NCBI GenBank assembly: GCA_001627925.1
Contig: LUQC01000094.1
Coordinates: 1 to 64,000 of the forward strand
Origin: Rhodobacteraceae bacterium REDSEA-S34_B6
Lineage (GTDB): Bacteria > Pseudomonadota > Alphaproteobacteria > Rhodobacterales > Rhodobacteraceae
Direction of reading: 5' to 3'
DNA: 64,000 nucleotides
The notes beneath the pieces were generated by a model, which was given only the letters and a program-made list of their open reading frames with translations, searched no databases and was not told the DNA's origin. Below, in pieces: positions 25,453-33,353 of this stretch. How positions within the stretch are numbered: position 1 is the stretch's first letter; each line of letters begins with the position of its first letter. A program made the translations under genes and the position numbers.

Positions 25453-25701
25453 ATGATGTTTTCGATCGAACATGAATTTGACTCAACAGTCATAACTTTA
25501 GTTGATGAAGGAACTGCTCAATTACAAGAAGATCTTATCATCAATAGTTTCTCTGAATGCGTAACAATTGAACAATATGACGCTCGTACTGACAAAATTA
25601 ATAAAATCACATTTTCTATGGCTCAGCTAAAGGACTTAAGTGCTGCCATTAATCTTCCTGAGGGAGTGTATACGAGGTTTAAAAAAGAAAATTTTAAGTA
25701 A
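25453..25701 (+). CDS. Conserved-looking small protein of unknown function
   Basis: An 82-residue acidic protein I cannot assign. Visible features: an N-terminal strand-rich part (SIEHEFDSTVITLVDEG), an ECVTIEQYDARTDKINKITFS segment, and a C-terminal AINLPEGVYTRFKK. There is no signal peptide, membrane segment, cysteine pair or nucleotide-binding motif. The amino-acid composition and lack of stops look genuinely coding, and similar short proteins seem familiar from Rhodobacterales, though I cannot name a family. Starts at ATG 25453 or 25456. It has its own upstream palindromes and overlaps the convergent modC end by 8 bp. Confidence 0.65.
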   Translation: MMFSIEHEFDSTVITLVDEGTAQLQEDLIINSFSECVTIEQYDARTDKINKITFSMAQLKDLSAAINLPEGVYTRFKKENFK

Positions 25702-26776
25702 TAACATCCGAAGTAGCGACAGAAACAGTTTTTAAGAATGCAAAACAAGTTTGGCCATGCTTTAAATTCATTGCATTAAGAGAACGCTGCGTTATTCTTG
25801 TTGTTAGTCTATGACCTCCAACTTCAATACCGACAATAGCACCAGGTCCATTCCCTAGAATTACCTCATCCACCTTGCCCTGCAAAATGTTAAGAGCCGA
25901 TATCTTTTTAGGTTTTTCGATTGCAAGTGTTATATCTTTTGCAAGGATTCTTAAATAAACTTTGCTACCTAAAATTGCATCGATCTTGGGCAAAAATAAT
26001 TTAGAACCTGCAAAATCTAGTTCTGTAATGCCATCGGATGCATGTTTTGAGACCTTAGCCTCAACAAAAGATGAAAGGTCTCTTAAACCCAACTTCTTTG
26101 CAACACTGAAACTAGACAATATTTGCAAAGTCTTTCCTTGCTCAAGAATCCTGCCTTTTTCAAGAACTACAATTCTATCAGAAAGTCTGACAACCTCAGA
26201 TTGAGAATGGCTTATGTAAAGGATTGGTATTTTAAAATTATCACGCACGAACTCTAAATAAGGGATTACTTCTGCTTTCAAACCTTCATCAAGCCCGGTC
26301 AAGGGCTCATCCAGAATGAGTATTTTTGGATTGCTCAGCAAAGCCCGACCGATCGCCACTCTTTGCTTCTCACCACCTGATAAATTTCCGGGTAAACGAT
26401 GAAGAATTTGTGCTAAATTTAGCACTTCCACAATTTCTGTAAATGAGCTGAGGTGACCCTTTCGGCCAAATCTATTTGAATACTTTAAGTTACTCTCAAC
26501 CTTCATATGTGGGAATAGCCTTGCATCTTGAAAGACAAAACCAATACCTCTCTTGTTAGCGGGCACATTAATTTTTTGCTGACTTTCAAAAATTACTTCA
26601 TTAAGTATTTTTATATAACCGGAGTCTGGTTTCACTAATCCTGCGATAAGGTTCACCAGCGTTGATTTACCAGCACCCGAAGGTCCAAAAATTGCAGTTA
26701 TACCAATGTCAGCATAAAATTCTGTATTGAGCTGGAAGTCACCCACAGTTTTTTCAATGTTTACAGCTATACTCAT
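25694..26776 (-). CDS. modC: Molybdate ABC transporter ATPase ModC
   Basis: ATP-binding subunit that powers molybdate import. The 360-residue protein has Walker A GPSGAGKST near residue 33, signature LSGGEKQRVAIGRAL near 125, Walker B ILILDEPLTGLD, and the H-loop ILYISHS. A C-terminal mop/TOBE domain from about residue 290 (SALNILQGKVDEVILGNGPGAIVGIEVGG) binds molybdate and is what separates ModC from other importers. Its start overlaps modB by 4 bp. Downstream it converges on the 82-residue gene. It would feed the molybdenum cofactor required by XdhAB encoded 7 kb away. Confidence 0.92.
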   Translation of the reverse strand: MSIAVNIEKTVGDFQLNTEFYADIGITAIFGPSGAGKSTLVNLIAGLVKPDSGYIKILNEVIFESQQKINVPANKRGIGFVFQDARLFPHMKVESNLKYSNRFGRKGHLSSFTEIVEVLNLAQILHRLPGNLSGGEKQRVAIGRALLSNPKILILDEPLTGLDEGLKAEVIPYLEFVRDNFKIPILYISHSQSEVVRLSDRIVVLEKGRILEQGKTLQILSSFSVAKKLGLRDLSSFVEAKVSKHASDGITELDFAGSKLFLPKIDAILGSKVYLRILAKDITLAIEKPKKISALNILQGKVDEVILGNGPGAIVGIEVGGHRLTTRITQRSLNAMNLKHGQTCFAFLKTVSVATSDVIT

Positions 26777-27465
26777 TCGTTGTGTTCTCTTCTGCTCAAC
26801 CTGCTGGCAAGAACTTCAGAAATATATAACGCTCCAATAGAAATCAGTAAAGAAAGACAGACTAATCTTAATGTCATAAAGTTATTGTCTGGGATCTGCA
26901 AAAATTCAAAAATGGCTGATGGTATTGTTTGGGTTTGCCCGGGAATGTTTGATACAAAGGTGATTGTAGCTCCAAATTCTCCCATTGATTTTGCAAATCC
27001 TAAAACAGCTCCCGTTATTAAAGCTGGGATAATTAAGGGCAAAGTTATTGTTAGGAAGATTATAAACTTATTTGCACCCAATGAGTAAGCAGCCACTTCT
27101 AATTTTGAATCAACACTCTCAAACCCTAATCTAATGGCACGAACCATCAATGGAAAAGACATAATGGCAGCAGCAAGCACAGCGCCAAACCAATGAAAGG
27201 CTACAGTGACGCCAAAATAGGTATCTAAAAAACGTCCGATCATCCCGGTGCGATTAAATAAAAGCAATAAAAAGTACCCTGTAACTACAGGGGGTAGTAT
27301 TAATGGAATATGAACAATGACATTTAGTGCCTGCCGGCCCCAGAATTTTTTTCGGGATAAAACATAAGCAATATAGATTGCCGGTAGTAAACTAAAGACA
27401 ACAGACCAAATTGACACCTTTATTGACAACAAAATTGCATCTATTTCCTGCGAGCTTAATTCCAA
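26773..27465 (-). CDS. modB: Molybdate ABC transporter permease ModB
   Basis: Inner-membrane subunit of the molybdate importer, 230 residues with about five or six hydrophobic helices. The cytoplasmic EAA loop reads EVAAYSLGANKFIIFLTITLP followed by the conserved GFAKSMGEFGATITF. It overlaps modC by 4 bp. Normally modA, the periplasmic binding protein, precedes modB. Here the sequence upstream is a short gap and the divergent rimP leader, so modA must be elsewhere or lost. Confidence 0.92.
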   Translation of the reverse strand: MELSSQEIDAILLSIKVSIWSVVFSLLPAIYIAYVLSRKKFWGRQALNVIVHIPLILPPVVTGYFLLLLFNRTGMIGRFLDTYFGVTVAFHWFGAVLAAAIMSFPLMVRAIRLGFESVDSKLEVAAYSLGANKFIIFLTITLPLIIPALITGAVLGFAKSMGEFGATITFVSNIPGQTQTIPSAIFEFLQIPDNNFMTLRLVCLSLLISIGALYISEVLASRLSRREHNE

Positions 27466-27529: not shown

Positions 27530-27557
27530 TTGAACACTTGCAAATAGAGAATATTAC
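27530..27557 (+). promoter_or_regulatory. Candidate promoter of the rimP-nusA-infB operon leader
   Basis: TTGAAC at 27530-27535 and TATTAC at 27552-27557 are separated by 16 bp, a plausible sigma-70 promoter. Transcription would start near 27564, upstream of the hairpin leader. It is assigned by eye only. Confidence 0.4.
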
Positions 27558-27563
27558 AACTAT

Positions 27564-27639
27564 ACGACGGATAACAGCGGTGTGTTGGGCAACTTTCACT
27601 CCACCGATTTAACGCAGCGGGCCGCAGGCCCGTTTTTTT
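27564..27639 (+). ncRNA. Short structured leader or small RNA before rimP
   Basis: A roughly 75-nt stretch between the candidate promoter and the rimP start. It contains one possible helix (CGGTG at 27578-27582 with CACCG at 27602-27606) and ends in a strong intrinsic terminator. It matches no RNA family I can name; it lacks the SRP GGAAG-type loop and known SAM riboswitch cores. It is either an attenuator for the nusA operon or an independent small RNA. The 5' end is approximate. Confidence 0.4.
27618..27639 (+). terminator. Rho-independent terminator directly upstream of rimP
   Basis: CGGGCC at 27618-27623 pairs with GGCCCG at 27627-27632 around a GCA loop, followed by seven T residues (27633-27639). 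The rimP ATG begins only 10 bp after the T-run. Confidence 0.85.
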
Positions 27640-27649
27640 GTATGAAATA

Positions 27650-28225
27650 ATGATTAACAACTTAATAGCAAAATCCTATATGGATAAAAAACTTGCAGAA
27701 CTCTTAAATCCAATTTTAGAGGATTTGGGATTCGAAATGGTTCGAGTTAGATTATCCAGCGGTGACCCTAGCACCTTACAGATTATGGCTGATCGCTTAG
27801 ACGGTCCGATAGGAGTTGATGAATTAGCAGAAATTAATACATCAGTAGGGACAATCTTAGATGTAGAGGATCCAATACCAGAAAATTATACATTGGAAAT
27901 TTCAAGCCCTGGCATCGATCGACCGCTTACAAGAATAAAAGATTTTGACTCATTCCAAGGTTTTGAAGCCAAAATAGAAACAACCGAACTAATTGATGGA
28001 CGACGACGGTTTAGAGGCGTTTTGGCTGGGGTAAATAATGATGAAGTACTTATCAACCTTGAGGAAGGTACCATCGGTTTAAAATTTACTTGGCTGTCAG
28101 AAGCAAGATTAGTTTTATCGGATGATTTAATTAAAAAAATGCTTAAGAAAAATACCAAGACAAGTATTTTGAATGAAGAAAACTTTGACGAAATTGAAAC
28201 CCAGTTGGAAAATAATGAGGAGTAG
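27650..28225 (+). CDS. rimP: Ribosome maturation factor RimP
   Basis: RimP assists maturation of the 30S subunit. The 191-residue product has the N-terminal alpha/beta domain ([23 protein letters not shown], then [24 protein letters not shown] with the conserved SSPGIDRPL) and a C-terminal SH3-like domain. The reading frame also allows a TTG at 27638, but that lies inside the terminator T-run. The ATG at 27650 gives [19 protein letters not shown], matching the usual alphaproteobacterial N-terminus, so it is preferred. No Shine-Dalgarno is visible, because the terminator occupies that space. nusA follows after 3 bp. Confidence 0.93.
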
Positions 28226-28228
28226 AAA

Positions 28229-29842
28229 ATGGCTATAACTTCCGCAAACCAATTAGAATTGTTGCAAACAGCTGAAGCTGTAGCACGCGAAAAAATGATC
28301 GACCCAAGTCTAGTGGTGGAAGCTATGGAGGAAAGTTTAGCGCGAGCAGCTAAATCACGCTACGGCTCTGAAATGGATATACAAGTTTCTATTGACAGAA
28401 AGACTGGTCGAGCGACATTCCGACGTGTTCGCACAGTTGTAGAAGAAGAACTTTTAGAAAATTACCAAGCTGAAATGACCGTGGAACAAGCCAAACAATA
28501 TATGGAAAACCCAGAAGTTGGACAACAATTCATTGAGGAAATACCTCCAGTGGACATGGGACGCATCGCAGCTCAATCGGCTAAGCAAGTAATTTTACAG
28601 AAAGTGCGAGAAGCAGAGCGTGACAGACAGTTCGAAGAATTTAAGGATCGTGCTGGTACAATAATAAACGGTGTTGTGAAACGTGAGGAATACGGAAACG
28701 TTATAGTTGATGTCGGAAGAGGCGAGGCAATGCTTCGGCGAAATGAAAAAATTGGCCGCGAAAGTTATCGGTCAGGAGACAGGATCCGGTGTTACATAAA
28801 AGATGTGAGAAGAGAAATGAGAGGTCCTCAAATCTTTTTATCAAGAACAGCACCTGAATTTATGGCTGAATTATTTAAAATGGAAGTTCCCGAAATTTAT
28901 GAGGGAATCATCGAAATCAAATCAGTTTCAAGAGATCCTGGATCACGCGCAAAAATATCAGTATTTACCAATGATGGCTCAATTGATCCCGTTGGTGCTT
29001 GCGTTGGAATGCGAGGCAGCCGCGTGCAAGCGGTTGTGAACGAATTACAGGGTGAAAAAATCGATATTATTCCATGGAATGAGGATCAACCAACATTTTT
29101 GGTGAATGCTCTACAGCCTGCAGAAGTAACTAAAGTTGTTTTGGATGAAGAGGCTGGGAAAATCGAAGTTGTTGTTCCAGACGATCAACTATCTCTTGCA
29201 ATTGGGCGTAGGGGGCAAAATGTTCGCTTGGCTAGTCAGTTAACAAATCTCGATATCGATATCTTGACTGAGGCTGAAGAGTCTGTACGGCGCCAAAAAG
29301 AATTTGAAGAGCGTACTACGTTGTTCATGGATACTCTGGATTTAGACGAATTTTTTGCCCAACTCCTTGTTTCTGAGGGTTTTGCGAGTTTAGAAGAAGT
29401 AGCTTACGTCGAATTAGATGAGTTAATGGTAATTGACGGGGTAGACGAGGAGACAGCCAGTGAGCTACAAACCCGCGCTCGTGAGTTTCTTGAGAAAGAA
29501 ACCCAGGAAGCTTTCGACAAATTACGCAATCTCGGTATAGAGGAAGCATTGCTAAACTTTGATGGGCTATCTCCACAAATGCTGCTTGTTCTTGCTGATG
29601 ATGGAATAAAAAATGTTGAAGAGTTTGCGAAATGCGCCGACTGGGAGCTCGCGGGAGGCTGGACAACGGTTGACGGTGAAAGAGTTAAAGATGACGGACT
29701 TTTAGAAAAGTTTGGCGTCACTCTTGAAGAGGCCCAAGATCTCATTATGACAGCACGAGTCATTCTGGGATGGGTAAACCCAGATGAAATTTCGCCAGTT
29801 AATTCTGCTGAGGCTGAAGAGGAAAATTTGCAAGAAAGCTAA
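28229..29842 (+). CDS. nusA: Transcription termination/antitermination factor NusA
   Basis: RNA-polymerase-associated factor controlling pausing, termination and antitermination. In 537 residues: an N-terminal RNAP-binding domain (about 1-130), an S1 domain (GTIINGVVKREEYGNVIVDVGRGEAMLRR), and KH1 and KH2 domains with GACVGMRGSRVQAVVNEL and SLAIGRRGQNVRLASQL. Two C-terminal helix-hairpin-helix-type acidic repeats follow from about 355 (FFAQLLVSEGFASLEEVAY and the MLLVLADDGIKNVEEFA region). Length fits alphaproteobacterial NusA. It is the second gene of rimP-nusA-ylxR-infB; the next start lies one base after its stop. Confidence 0.97.
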   Translation: MAITSANQLELLQTAEAVAREKMIDPSLVVEAMEESLARAAKSRYGSEMDIQVSIDRKTGRATFRRVRTVVEEELLENYQAEMTVEQAKQYMENPEVGQQFIEEIPPVDMGRIAAQSAKQVILQKVREAERDRQFEEFKDRAGTIINGVVKREEYGNVIVDVGRGEAMLRRNEKIGRESYRSGDRIRCYIKDVRREMRGPQIFLSRTAPEFMAELFKMEVPEIYEGIIEIKSVSRDPGSRAKISVFTNDGSIDPVGACVGMRGSRVQAVVNELQGEKIDIIPWNEDQPTFLVNALQPAEVTKVVLDEEAGKIEVVVPDDQLSLAIGRRGQNVRLASQLTNLDIDILTEAEESVRRQKEFEERTTLFMDTLDLDEFFAQLLVSEGFASLEEVAYVELDELMVIDGVDEETASELQTRAREFLEKETQEAFDKLRNLGIEEALLNFDGLSPQMLLVLADDGIKNVEEFAKCADWELAGGWTTVDGERVKDDGLLEKFGVTLEEAQDLIMTARVILGWVNPDEISPVNSAEAEEENLQES

Positions 29843-29843
29843 T

Positions 29844-30482
29844 ATGACAAACGCATTTGAGCATAAAGATACACTACAGAGTAACGAAAGAAAGTGTATC
29901 GCAACTGGCAAAATCAGGGATAGAGACGAAATGTACCGTTTTATAATCGGCCCTGACGGTCAACTTCTACCCGATTTGGCTGAAAAATTACCAGGAAGGG
30001 GTCTATGGGTCTCGGCTAATCAATTATCTTTGAAATTGGCTATAGAAGAAAATCTTTTTGAGAAGTCGGCAAAAAAAACTTTAAAAGTGAAAGATAATTT
30101 AATTTCTGAGATAGAATGCCTCCAATCAAAAAGGTTACTGGATCTTATCCGTTTGGCACGTAAAGCTGGCCAAGCAGTATGTGGCTACGAGAAAGTAAAG
30201 GAGTGGCTTTCAAAAGATAAAGTTTTACTTCTTATACAAGCGCATGATGGTTCTGGTAGAGGCAAGTCAAAACTTAGCCCGCCAGATACTGGAAAATTTA
30301 TTGGCTGCTTAAGTTCACTTGAATTGGGAGAGGCATTTGGGAGACAAAGTGCAATTCATTGTGCAGTTACATCTGGTGGTTTAGCTAAACGTATAGTACA
30401 GGAGGCGCACCGGTTAAAGGGTCTTCGACAGAATTTTGGTGAAGAATCACCTGAAAGGAAAAGACAACTAAATGAGCGATAG
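29844..30482 (+). CDS. YlxR-type RNA-binding protein fused to an L7Ae-like domain
   Basis: A 212-residue protein in the usual place between nusA and infB. The N-terminal 80 residues are the YlxR/DUF448 fold ([25 protein letters not shown] and [10 protein letters not shown]). The C-terminal part resembles the L7Ae/L30e RNA-binding fold ([25 protein letters not shown]). This fused form is common in alphaproteobacteria, whereas Firmicutes encode the two separately. I chose the ATG at 29844, one base after the nusA stop, because residues upstream overlap nusA and lack family similarity. Its end overlaps infB by 11 bp. The role is probably RNase P, ribosome or nucleoid related, not settled. Confidence 0.88.
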
Positions 30483-32952
30483 TGATGGCAAAAAAACTCT
30501 AGGTCTGCGGGGTGGGCCCCGCGCAGGTAATGTCAAACAAAGCTTTAGCCACGGACGTAGCAAGAGTGTTGTTGTCGAAACCAAACGTAAACGGGTAGTC
30601 GTGCCAAAATCGGGCACTGCAAAACCTATGGATGGAGCACAAGCCACAGAGAAAACAGCTAGTGCAAGACCTTCTGGTGTTACAGATGCAGAAATGGAAC
30701 GTCGGATGAAAGCTTTGCAAGCTGCAAAAGCCCGCGAAGCAGAAGAAAAATCGGAACGTATAGCCGAAGAGCAAAATAGGCAAGAAGAGCGCGACAGAAG
30801 AATAGCTGAGCAGGAAGCTAAAGAAAAAGAACAAAGAAATGCTGAAGACAGGGCTCGCAAAAAAGCTGATGAAGAAAAGGCAAGAGTAGAAGCCGAAGAA
30901 TTAGCAAAACAGGCTGCCCTCAATACGCCTGTGCCAAAAGGTGACCCAGAAACTGTGCTGAAGGAGCAAAAAAACCCTCAGTCAGCACAAAGAAAGAAAA
31001 CTCGCGAGGATGAACCTAGTGAAAGACGAAACACAAAGGGTCGTGAAGGATTTGGTCGAAGATCTGGCAAGTTAACTATAAGTCAAGCCCTAGAGGGTGA
31101 AGGCGGCCGACAAAAATCAATGGCCGCAATGAAGCGCAAACAAGAACGAGCACGTCAAAAAGCGATGGGCCAAATGCAGGAGCGCGAAAAAGTTGTAAGA
31201 GACGTTCAAATACCTGAGGCCATAGTCGTTTCTGAATTAGCAAATAGAATGGCAGAGCGTGTAGCAGAAGTTGTAAAAGCGCTTATGAAAATGGGTATGA
31301 TGGTAACCCAGAACCAAGTAATTGATGCCGATACGGCTGAGCTAATCGTCGAAGAATTTGGACACAAAGTCGTAAGAGTTTCAGATGCAGACGTCGAGGA
31401 TGTTATCAATGAGGTGAAAGACGCTGAATCTGATCTAAAGCCCAGACCAGCAGTAGTAACAATAATGGGGCACGTAGATCACGGCAAAACATCTTTGCTG
31501 GATGCAATTAGAAACACCAAGGTAACAGCTGGAGAAGCAGGCGGAATTACACAGCATATCGGCGCGTACCAAGTTGAGACAAAACGAGGTGATATCATAA
31601 GCTTTCTTGATACTCCGGGGCACGCTGCATTCACCTCCATGCGCTCAAGGGGTGCTCAAGTTACCGATATTGTAGTTTTAGTGGTAGCTGCAGATGACGC
31701 TGTCATGCCACAAACAGTGGAGGCAATAAATCATGCGAAGGCTGCAAATGTTCCAATGATTGTTGCTATTAACAAGGTTGACCGAACCGAAGCGAACCCA
31801 GATAAGGTCAGGACTGATCTACTTCAACATGAAGTAATAGTAGAAAAGCTTTCTGGAGAAGTCCAAGATGTCGAAGTCTCGGCAATAAATGGAACTGGAT
31901 TGGATGAATTACTGGAAGCTATAGCGCTACAGGCAGAAATATTGGAACTTACTGCGAACCCAGACAGGGCTGCTCAGGGTGCAGTAATTGAAGCTCAACT
32001 AGATGTGGGACGCGGACCCGTAGCAACCGTGTTAGTTCAACGCGGGACTTTGCAACAGGGTGATATCTTTGTTGTAGGCGAACAATGGGGTAAAGTGAGG
32101 GCACTTATCAATGACCAGGGCAAACGTGTTGATACCGCAGGACCTTCAGTACCCGTCGAAGTGCTAGGCTTAAATGGGACACCTGAAGCTGGTGATGTTT
32201 TGAACGTTGTTGAAACTGAAGCCCAGGCGAGAGAGATTGCAGACTACCGAATTGCAGTTGCAAAGGAGAAACGAGCTACTGCTGGAGCATCCACTTTGGA
32301 ACAAATGATGGCAAAAGCTAAAGAAGACAAAAATGTTTCAGAGCTTCAAATTTTAGTTAAAGCTGATGTGCAAGGTTCTGCAGAAGCAATTGTACAGGCA
32401 ATGGAAAAAATTGGAAATGATGAAGTTAGAGTTCGTGTACTGCACTATGGTGTTGGAGCAATTACAAACACAGATATAAGCCTAGCCGAAGCCTCTAATG
32501 CACCAGTAATTGGGTTTAATGTACGCGCGAACACCTCTGCTCGTCAGGTCGCAAATCAAAAGGGTGTTGAAGTCAGATATTACTCTGTAATCTATGACCT
32601 AGTTGATGATATCAAAGCTGCTGCAAGTGGACTTCTATCAGCAGAAATTCGTGAAAATTTCATAGGTTATGCTCAAATCAAAGAAGTGTTCAAAGTGTCT
32701 GGAGTAGGTAAAGTTGCAGGTTGTATAGTAACGGAGGGCGTTGCGCGACGTAGCGCTGGCGTTCGCTTACTGCGTGACGATGTTGTCATACATGAGGGTA
32801 CACTTAAAACACTTAAGCGCTTTAAAGATGAGGTGCCCGAAGTGCAATCAGGACAAGAATGCGGTATGGCTTTTGAGAATTATGAGGATATCCGAAACGA
32901 TGATGTCATTGAGATTTTTGAGCGACAAGAAATCGAGCGGAACCTAGATTAA
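30472..32952 (+). CDS. infB: Translation initiation factor IF-2
   Basis: GTPase that positions initiator tRNA on the 30S subunit. The 826-residue protein begins with a long, highly charged, low-complexity N-terminal region (about 1-250, rich in Lys, Glu and Arg). The IF2N-like segment follows. The G domain has [20 protein letters not shown] and NKVD, and domains II, III and C-terminal C1/C2 follow ([19 protein letters not shown]). The ATG lies inside the YlxR-L7Ae gene. rbfA and truB, usual downstream partners, are not here. mutT converges with a 2-bp gap. Confidence 0.98.
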
Positions 32953-32954
32953 CA

Positions 32955-33353
32955 TCATAGCCAATCTCTAAGAACCGATATTAGTGGAATATCTGCAGCT
33001 GGCATTGGAAATTCTTTTAAGCTGTTTACATGCACCCATTTTAAGTTCTGACCTTCTTTAGCTTTGGGTGTTCCCTCCCACTTTCGACAAGCGAAAAGTG
33101 GCATCAATAGATGAAAATCTGAATACCCATGACTGGCAAAGGTAAGGGGAGCTAGACAACTTGACCAGGTTTCAATTCCTAGTTCTTCATAAAGTTCTCT
33201 AATTAAGGCATCCTCTGGAGTTTCCCCAGGCTCAATTTTACCGCCGGGAAATTCCCACAAACCCTCCATGCTTTTCCCACTGGGCCTTTGGGCTATTAAA
33301 ACTCTTCCATCCCGATCAATAAGTGCAACCGCTGATACTATTATAACTTTCAT
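32955..33353 (-). CDS. mutT: Nudix hydrolase, probable 8-oxo-dGTP diphosphatase MutT
   Basis: Sanitises the nucleotide pool by hydrolysing oxidised dGTP. The 132-residue product carries a complete Nudix box, GGKIEPGETPEDALIRELYEELGI at about residues 36-59, matching GX5EX7REUXEEXGU. ALIDRDGRVLIAQRPSGKSMEGLWEFPGG precedes it, as in MutT proper. Length fits. Its start overlaps the end of argJ by 4 bp, a frequent argJ-mutT arrangement in Rhodobacterales, so the two are co-transcribed. Confidence 0.92.
   Translation of the reverse strand: MKVIIVSAVALIDRDGRVLIAQRPSGKSMEGLWEFPGGKIEPGETPEDALIRELYEELGIETWSSCLAPLTFASHGYSDFHLLMPLFACRKWEGTPKAKEGQNLKWVHVNSLKEFPMPAADIPLISVLRDWL

Follow-up and report, generated by a model that had tools for sequence, protein, structure and literature searches.

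A conserved leader with a terminator and a competing helix upstream of rimP–nusA in Rhodobacteraceae, a candidate transcription attenuator

The rimP-leader of Naville and Gautheret (2010) is the closest described relative of the element reported here. It ranked top among predicted attenuators, and control by NusA was proposed for it (PMC2965389). It consists of a GGGC...GCCC stem followed by a T tract, 4–130 nt before rimP in rimP–nusA–infB, with a transcript start 5' of the terminator and both short terminated and long readthrough forms (PMC2965389). In the accessible part of that paper, a protein is proposed to recognize the conserved GGGc...gCCC stem directly. The same part describes no larger conserved element and no antiterminator for the general motif, and mentions for several Gammaproteobacteria a second upstream terminator with a potential antiterminator (PMC2965389). 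Reports that NusA represses its own operon go back to 1985 (references in PMC2965389). In the Bacillus subtilis nusA operon, NusA-stimulated termination in the leader limits nusA and is reported as established (PMC12288461). Termination 31 nt after the transcript start, with proposed NusA feedback, is reported for Streptococcus agalactiae (PMC4448216), and the Escherichia coli metY–nusA–infB operon has terminators upstream of rimP and NusA feedback (PMC6511841).

The window analysed here is a stretch of 64,000 nt of DNA from a member of the Rhodobacteraceae that carries rimP, nusA, ylxR and infB (table 1). The original prediction had placed a strong GC-rich terminator with seven T residues 10 bp before rimP. 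The coordinates agree: the stem-loop AGCGGGCC-GCA-GGCCCGTT occupies 27616–27634 with a GCA loop, and the T run is followed by 10 bases, 27640–27649, and then by the rimP ATG at 27650. A 25-nt hairpin has a minimum free energy of −13.5 kcal/mol (z = −4.26), which none of 200 shuffles equals. A search for the pattern GCGGGCCNNNGGCCCGTTTTTTT with up to three mismatches gave a single occurrence in the window, and none of 100 shuffles contained it. The element is thus a Rho-independent terminator with a GGGC...GCCC stem and a T stretch, situated 10 nt before the rimP ATG (4–130 nt expected) in an operon whose genes are identified by Pfam. It is the alphaproteobacterial form of the rimP-leader, a known kind of element. 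The Rfam covariance models, which we take to include a gammaproteobacterial rimP leader, gave no match in the window at gathering score. For six leader loci, searched with E up to 10, four matches were obtained, none to a rimP family; an Rfam sRNA model partly overlaps the leader of locus L011 at 18.2 bits, its gathering score being 80. BLAST of the leader against plasmids gave no match.

Table 1. Features of the rimP–nusA leader, operon and divergent neighbour in the window.
Feature	Position	Strand	Basis or remark
Divergent ABC permease, modB-like	26773–27465	−	Pfam BPD_transp_1 9.6e-19
−35 element TTGCAA	27538–27543	+	sequence; among 59 family leaders, a TTGC-like −35 spaced by 17 nt is the most frequent arrangement
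−10 element TATACG	27561–27566	+	sequence; layout recurs in relatives
Predicted transcription start	27573	+	A of AACAGCGGT; placed from the −10 position
Leader RNA, about 65–67 nt if terminated	27573–27639	+	R1 match, 83.9 bits
Strand a, GCGGT	27577–27581	+	conserved 5' segment, complementary to GCCGC at 27621–27625
Hairpin 1	27578–27606	+	CGG (27578–27580) with CCG (27604–27606); inner stem 27582–27584 with 27597–27599; inner-stem covariation
Strand b, TCCACCG	27600–27606	+	its CCG has two possible partners, strand a and CGG in the terminator 5' arm
Intrinsic terminator stem-loop (GC stem)	27616–27634	+	terminator scan, folding, pattern search
GCCGC, partner of strand a	27621–27625	+	terminator arm and loop
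T7 tract	27633–27639	+	read from sequence
rimP	27650–28225	+	Pfam RimP_N 1e-19, DUF150_C 2.1e-10; start by homology
nusA	28229–29842	+	Pfam NusA_N 3.7e-32, KH_5 4.3e-28
ylxR	29784–30482	+	Pfam YlxR 3.1e-18; ORF as listed
infB (IF2)	30472–32952	+	Pfam IF-2 1.2e-41

Comparison with the described systems shows both kinship and additions. Terminator anatomy and the position before rimP–nusA–infB are shared with the rimP-leader as described (PMC2965389), whereas the Rhodobacteraceae add to that general motif an upstream hairpin (hairpin 1) and a complementarity between the 5' end and the terminator loop. Both of these additions were absent from the original prediction. As in B. subtilis a terminator stands in the 5' leader, but in the window NusA feedback is something we only infer, and the leader is shorter (about 77 nt predicted, against about 180 nt; PMC2965389). 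The E. coli operon differs in having a tRNA gene, several promoters and RNase III sites (PMC6511841). A tRNA gene search within the window found none, hence no metY-like tRNA before rimP, and one promoter was found. In the literature searched on rimP and nusA leaders or sRNAs (subscription papers, preprints and supplements lay outside its scope), hairpin 1 is not described. The words rimP, nusA and 'ribosome maturation' are absent from the main texts of three Rhodobacter and Paracoccus papers (PMC5107571, PMC6238624, PMC8625941). The Rhodobacteraceae extension and its competing helix appear to be undescribed in the accessible literature.

As had been claimed, the terminator lies between the promoter and the rimP–nusA–ylxR–infB genes. 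The promoter, TTGCAA-17-TATACG at 27538–27566, ends 7 nt before the predicted start A27573, which gives rimP a predicted 5' UTR of 77 nt. The promoter scan requires a final T in the −10 element and therefore did not list it. Alphaproteobacterial −10 elements often have no such T, and CarD has been proposed as a helper (PMC8407463, accessible part). Among 59 family leaders, the −10 is TATATG, TATATC or TATACG in 42, and in 47 it ends 10–11 nt before GCGG. Since the neighbouring gene is divergent, the terminator ends no upstream gene. That neighbour belongs to a modBC-like pair, an ABC permease and a TOBE-domain ATPase, at 25694–27465; the permease ORF as listed begins at TTG 27465, near the rimP promoter.

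Conservation was followed in several samples. In a first set of 22 same-family rimP loci (L002–L023, the window's own included), all 22 have a GGGCC...T terminator 5' of rimP, and the promoter and first hairpin are common to most. A covariance model, R1, was built on 20 of them; L022 and L023, with divergent first hairpins, were omitted. R1 finds one match in the window's genome at the score given in table 1, with a runner-up at 18.4 bits, and, at E up to 0.01, it matches 272 of 295 genomes of the family. A draw from the whole class gave 28 matching genomes of 289, with more than 60 bits only in four same-family ones (the window's included) and at most 27.3 bits in the remainder. The idea that copies of the leader form a regulon was ruled out, as second matches, found in 12 genomes, reach no more than 27.2 bits and the window's genome has only its weak runner-up. 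The nearest 80 among 594 RimP relatives carry titles such as Ruegeria, Sulfitobacter, Roseovarius, Paracoccus and Shimia, and in all 80 an R1 match lies directly 5' of rimP; locus L371 has an additional weaker match on the opposite strand.

To avoid selection by the leader itself, genomes were also chosen by RimP (PF02576), which is present in 60 of 61 family genomes, the window's own included. A terminator precedes rimP in all 59 of these genomes other than the window's. (In G021 the terminator finder's top hairpin is another one, and the leader terminator is still visible.) The strict hairpin-1 pattern occurs in 47 of the 59, and R1, with an E limit of 0.1, matches all 60 loci directly ahead of rimP, no match being weaker than 4.6e-5. 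A class sample had RimP in 101 of 114 genomes; 70 of the 101 upstream regions were examined, with two same-family ones omitted. Outside the family, the terminator is present in 52 of the 70 regions and hairpin 1 in none of the 70. GTGGG in the 5' arm recurs at 43 of the 52 other-family loci with a terminator, with variable loops (L144–L173, L233–L272), and this arm looks conserved across Alphaproteobacteria. Its presence in so many other-family upstream regions makes the rimP terminator a widely shared element, and hairpin 1 looks like an addition of Rhodobacteraceae.

Hairpin 1 is framed by conserved flanks, 5' AACAGCGGY and 3' N-CCACCG, and its upper part is variable. In 100 relatives the inner stem shows double-sided changes at all three pairs; the third pair is unpaired in 26 of the 100 leaders. 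For the whole structure, covariation is 0.119 in 100 leaders chosen by model score, against 0.065 when shuffled and at most 0.032 when slid. In the rimP-selected set it is 0.201, against 0.096 when shuffled and up to 0.081 when slid. Both alignments were fitted to the model, and the 100-leader one (A3) takes 100 of 113 family loci. The minimum free energy structure of the window's own leader lacks hairpin 1, and its z-scores are ordinary (−1.61 for the leader, −0.88 for a transcript cut at the loop). The second helix that can stand beside the pairing of strand a with GCCGC in the window is also unlike the junction of relatives. For these three reasons the argument is a comparative one.

The 5' end and the terminator loop are complementary throughout most of the family. 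All 60 aligned rimP-selected leaders contain GCGG, in 59 of them with C or T as the next base, and hairpin 1 needs only the CGG of this GCGGY. Strand a and GCCGC form five of five pairs in 58 of 60 leaders (56 of 59 by a looser count), and the CCG of hairpin 1 forms three of three pairs with the CGG of the terminator arm in 55 of 60, so that judged by sequence a three-way junction can form in relatives. A CGC loop occurs in 45 of 48 rimP terminators and in 1 of 12 same-stem terminators elsewhere in the 61 family genomes (Fisher p = 1.2e-8). These background terminators come from genome pattern searches, with rimP and non-rimP assigned by coordinates. One palindromic place, G072:C35, is counted in both directions, and a background taken within the loci is too small and partly misclassified. 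GCCGC itself is found in 55 of 59 family rimP terminators and in 2 of 52 from other families. Loops of other families (n = 48) bind the canonical 5' end with a median of −6.7 kcal/mol, against −11.5 for native family pairs; −8 kcal/mol or better is reached by 15 of the 48, by 2 of 12 non-rimP loops and by 58 of 60 native pairs.

Folding predicts an order of events. Averaged over leaders, CGC stabilizes the half-made transcript more than any other of the 64 loop triplets; the native triplet comes first in 33 of the 60 leaders and second in 16. Before the 3' arm emerges the pairing of strand a with GCCGC dominates, and full-length folding favours the terminator: a probe pair of the a:GCCGC helix is above 0.5 in 53 of the 60 transcripts when they end at the loop, against 3 of 60 at full length. 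When the antiterminator was forced in a second calculation, 21 of 51 leaders stayed within 3 kcal/mol of their full-length optimum. Some GC-rich leaders have minimum free energy structures with a long pairing to the terminator 3' arm; as this is not general, it was rejected. Both structures, predicted to exclude each other, are conserved in the family. With so little variation in the a:GCCGC helix there is scant direct covariation, and compensation is seen indirectly, in register-shifted loops and in a permutation comparison.

Among 30 low-scoring or unmatched family genomes, the 23 with a RimP match were inspected. In one (G133) the contig begins too near rimP to show a leader, and several (for example G205, G114 and G132) have the canonical one. 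In others the complementarity is kept in another register: a UGUU loop complementary to 5' CAACAG (G277, G186, G142), ACAGG pairing with CCUGU (G319) or CAGC pairing with GCUG (G221, G313); the loop of G057, a main-set genome, is UGU. Contiguous pairs are reduced to three in G053 and G304 and to four in G059, and the T tract is poor in G224. A degenerate terminator with a long loop precedes rimP in G188 (L381), where attenuation may have been lost. The small-genome, AT-rich relatives G121, G064 and G202 (L399, L400, L402) keep a rimP terminator and have neither a 5' GCGG nor a CGC loop within about 80 nt, which fits joint loss and also a separate lineage. Across 46 distinct family pairs, drawn from 60 main and 10 divergent leaders, native combinations of 5' end and loop outbind re-dealt ones (0 of 5000 permutations, kinship ignored). 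For 12 hand-picked divergent leaders the permutation p is 0.05, or 0.06 without a duplicate.

The comparisons across genomes demonstrate the promoter layout, both hairpins, the complementarity of 5' end and terminator loop, and the near restriction of that complementarity to Rhodobacteraceae. From these we infer that termination and readthrough both occur in the cell, that the switch is kinetic and that NusA is its sensor. It is moderately likely that the leader is a transcription attenuator of rimP–nusA–ylxR–infB with a transient antiterminator, through which NusA limits its own synthesis. The original prediction had offered attenuation as one of two readings, and that reading is well supported by a terminator within the operon's own leader, a divergent neighbour, the presence of the terminator throughout the rimP-selected family genomes and the likeness to published rimP-leaders as far as these are described. 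By analogy with those systems, NusA feedback probably acts on the Rhodobacteraceae leader. The proposed mechanism has six steps. (i) A single promoter would yield an RNA beginning AACAGCGGY, in which hairpin 1 folds first. (ii) As the terminator 5' arm and loop emerge, the 5' GCGGY would pair with GCCGC. (iii) In relatives the CCG of hairpin 1 would then pair with the CGG of the terminator arm to complete a three-way junction. (iv) The a:GCCGC pairing would briefly delay the terminator, which becomes the more stable state once the 3' arm is out. (v) Where polymerase is slow at the U tract or carries NusA there, the transcript would refold and end after about 65–67 nt. (vi) With a fast polymerase or scarce NusA, transcription would read through into rimP–nusA, and NusA would thereby restrict its own synthesis.

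Because the antiterminator would form first and then be displaced, termination would depend on the time spent at the U tract. This time is lengthened by NusA and by pausing. In a bolder form, which we put forward tentatively and hold to be possible, the first nine nucleotides clamp the half-made terminator and readthrough reports polymerase speed or NusA occupancy, which would make the leader an undescribed class of RNA in most of the family. Switches built of anti-antiterminator, antiterminator and terminator, for example those of the PyrR type, likewise have mutually exclusive helices that share strands. By comparison the Rhodobacteraceae antiterminator is short and predicted to be transient. 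If the attenuator reading is true, it would make plain how essential genes can lie behind a strong terminator. With two competing helices in 67 nt and a presence in most genera of one family, the leader offers a small testable system in easily grown bacteria.

A plain NusA-responsive terminator, whose 5' hairpin and loop are a sequence bound by NusA or another protein without any antiterminator pairing, is rather unlikely but has several points on its side. Recognition of the stem by protein, with no antiterminator in the general motif, is what the accessible part of PMC2965389 proposes; in other families of Alphaproteobacteria the terminator occurs with no hairpin 1 before it; the CCA that precedes CCG is conserved even though neither proposed state pairs it; and the invariant GCGGY and CGC could be a protein-binding sequence. 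Against it stand the largely family-restricted GCCGC, the absence of both segments together from the three AT-rich genera, and the register-shifted loops that still complement the 5' end, which protein binding alone does not predict. Somewhat less probable again is control by temperature, in which a cold-shock protein melts the terminator and raises operon expression in the cold, as in E. coli. Cold-shock proteins can antiterminate by blocking hairpins (PMC4956666, accessible part) and the E. coli operon is cold-induced (PMC6511841, accessible part), but the leader has no sequence feature specific to such proteins or to temperature. This control would be compatible with either an attenuator or a plain terminator.

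That the leader is instead a trans-acting sRNA, a stable product of 65–67 nt with rimP transcribed by leakage, seems improbable. The combination of two hairpins with a strong terminator is typical of sRNAs, and a C-rich UCCACC could perhaps contact G-rich ribosome-binding sites. Yet the leader stands ahead of rimP at every locus checked, with one strong copy in each of the 13 genomes examined; its conservation is largely explained by pairing within the leader, the upper part of hairpin 1 being variable; and the Rhodobacter and Paracoccus papers cited above are silent on rimP and nusA in their main texts. The second reading of the original prediction joined a separate small RNA to a leaderless operon. 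Such an operon, with a promoter between terminator and ATG and no 5' UTR for rimP, is highly improbable. It had been argued that no room is left for a Shine-Dalgarno sequence, and the window's 10-nt gap (GTATGAAATA) indeed contains no Shine-Dalgarno-like triplet. Ten nucleotides can, however, hold a weak one: GGA, GAG, AGG or longer occurs 4–16 nt before rimP in 46 of 59 relatives and in the other 13 there is none, and the nearest relative among those retrieved (L003) has GTATGAGATA in the same gap. The promoter scan, with its requirement for a final T, lists none between terminator and ATG, and the conserved promoter upstream of the leader, with the 77-nt 5' UTR that it predicts, disfavours this reading further. 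The attenuator thus remains the preferred account.

At the far end of the operon, a convergent NUDIX gene (32955–33353) follows infB, so that no rbfA lies directly behind infB and the operon as read ends there. The true ylxR start probably lies after nusA. The rimP ATG at 27650 is backed by homology (MINNLIAKS...). It is overlapped, as TAATG, by the stop of a two-codon ORF, ATG AAA TAA, at 27642–27650; this is probably chance and could be an aid to translation where a Shine-Dalgarno sequence is missing.
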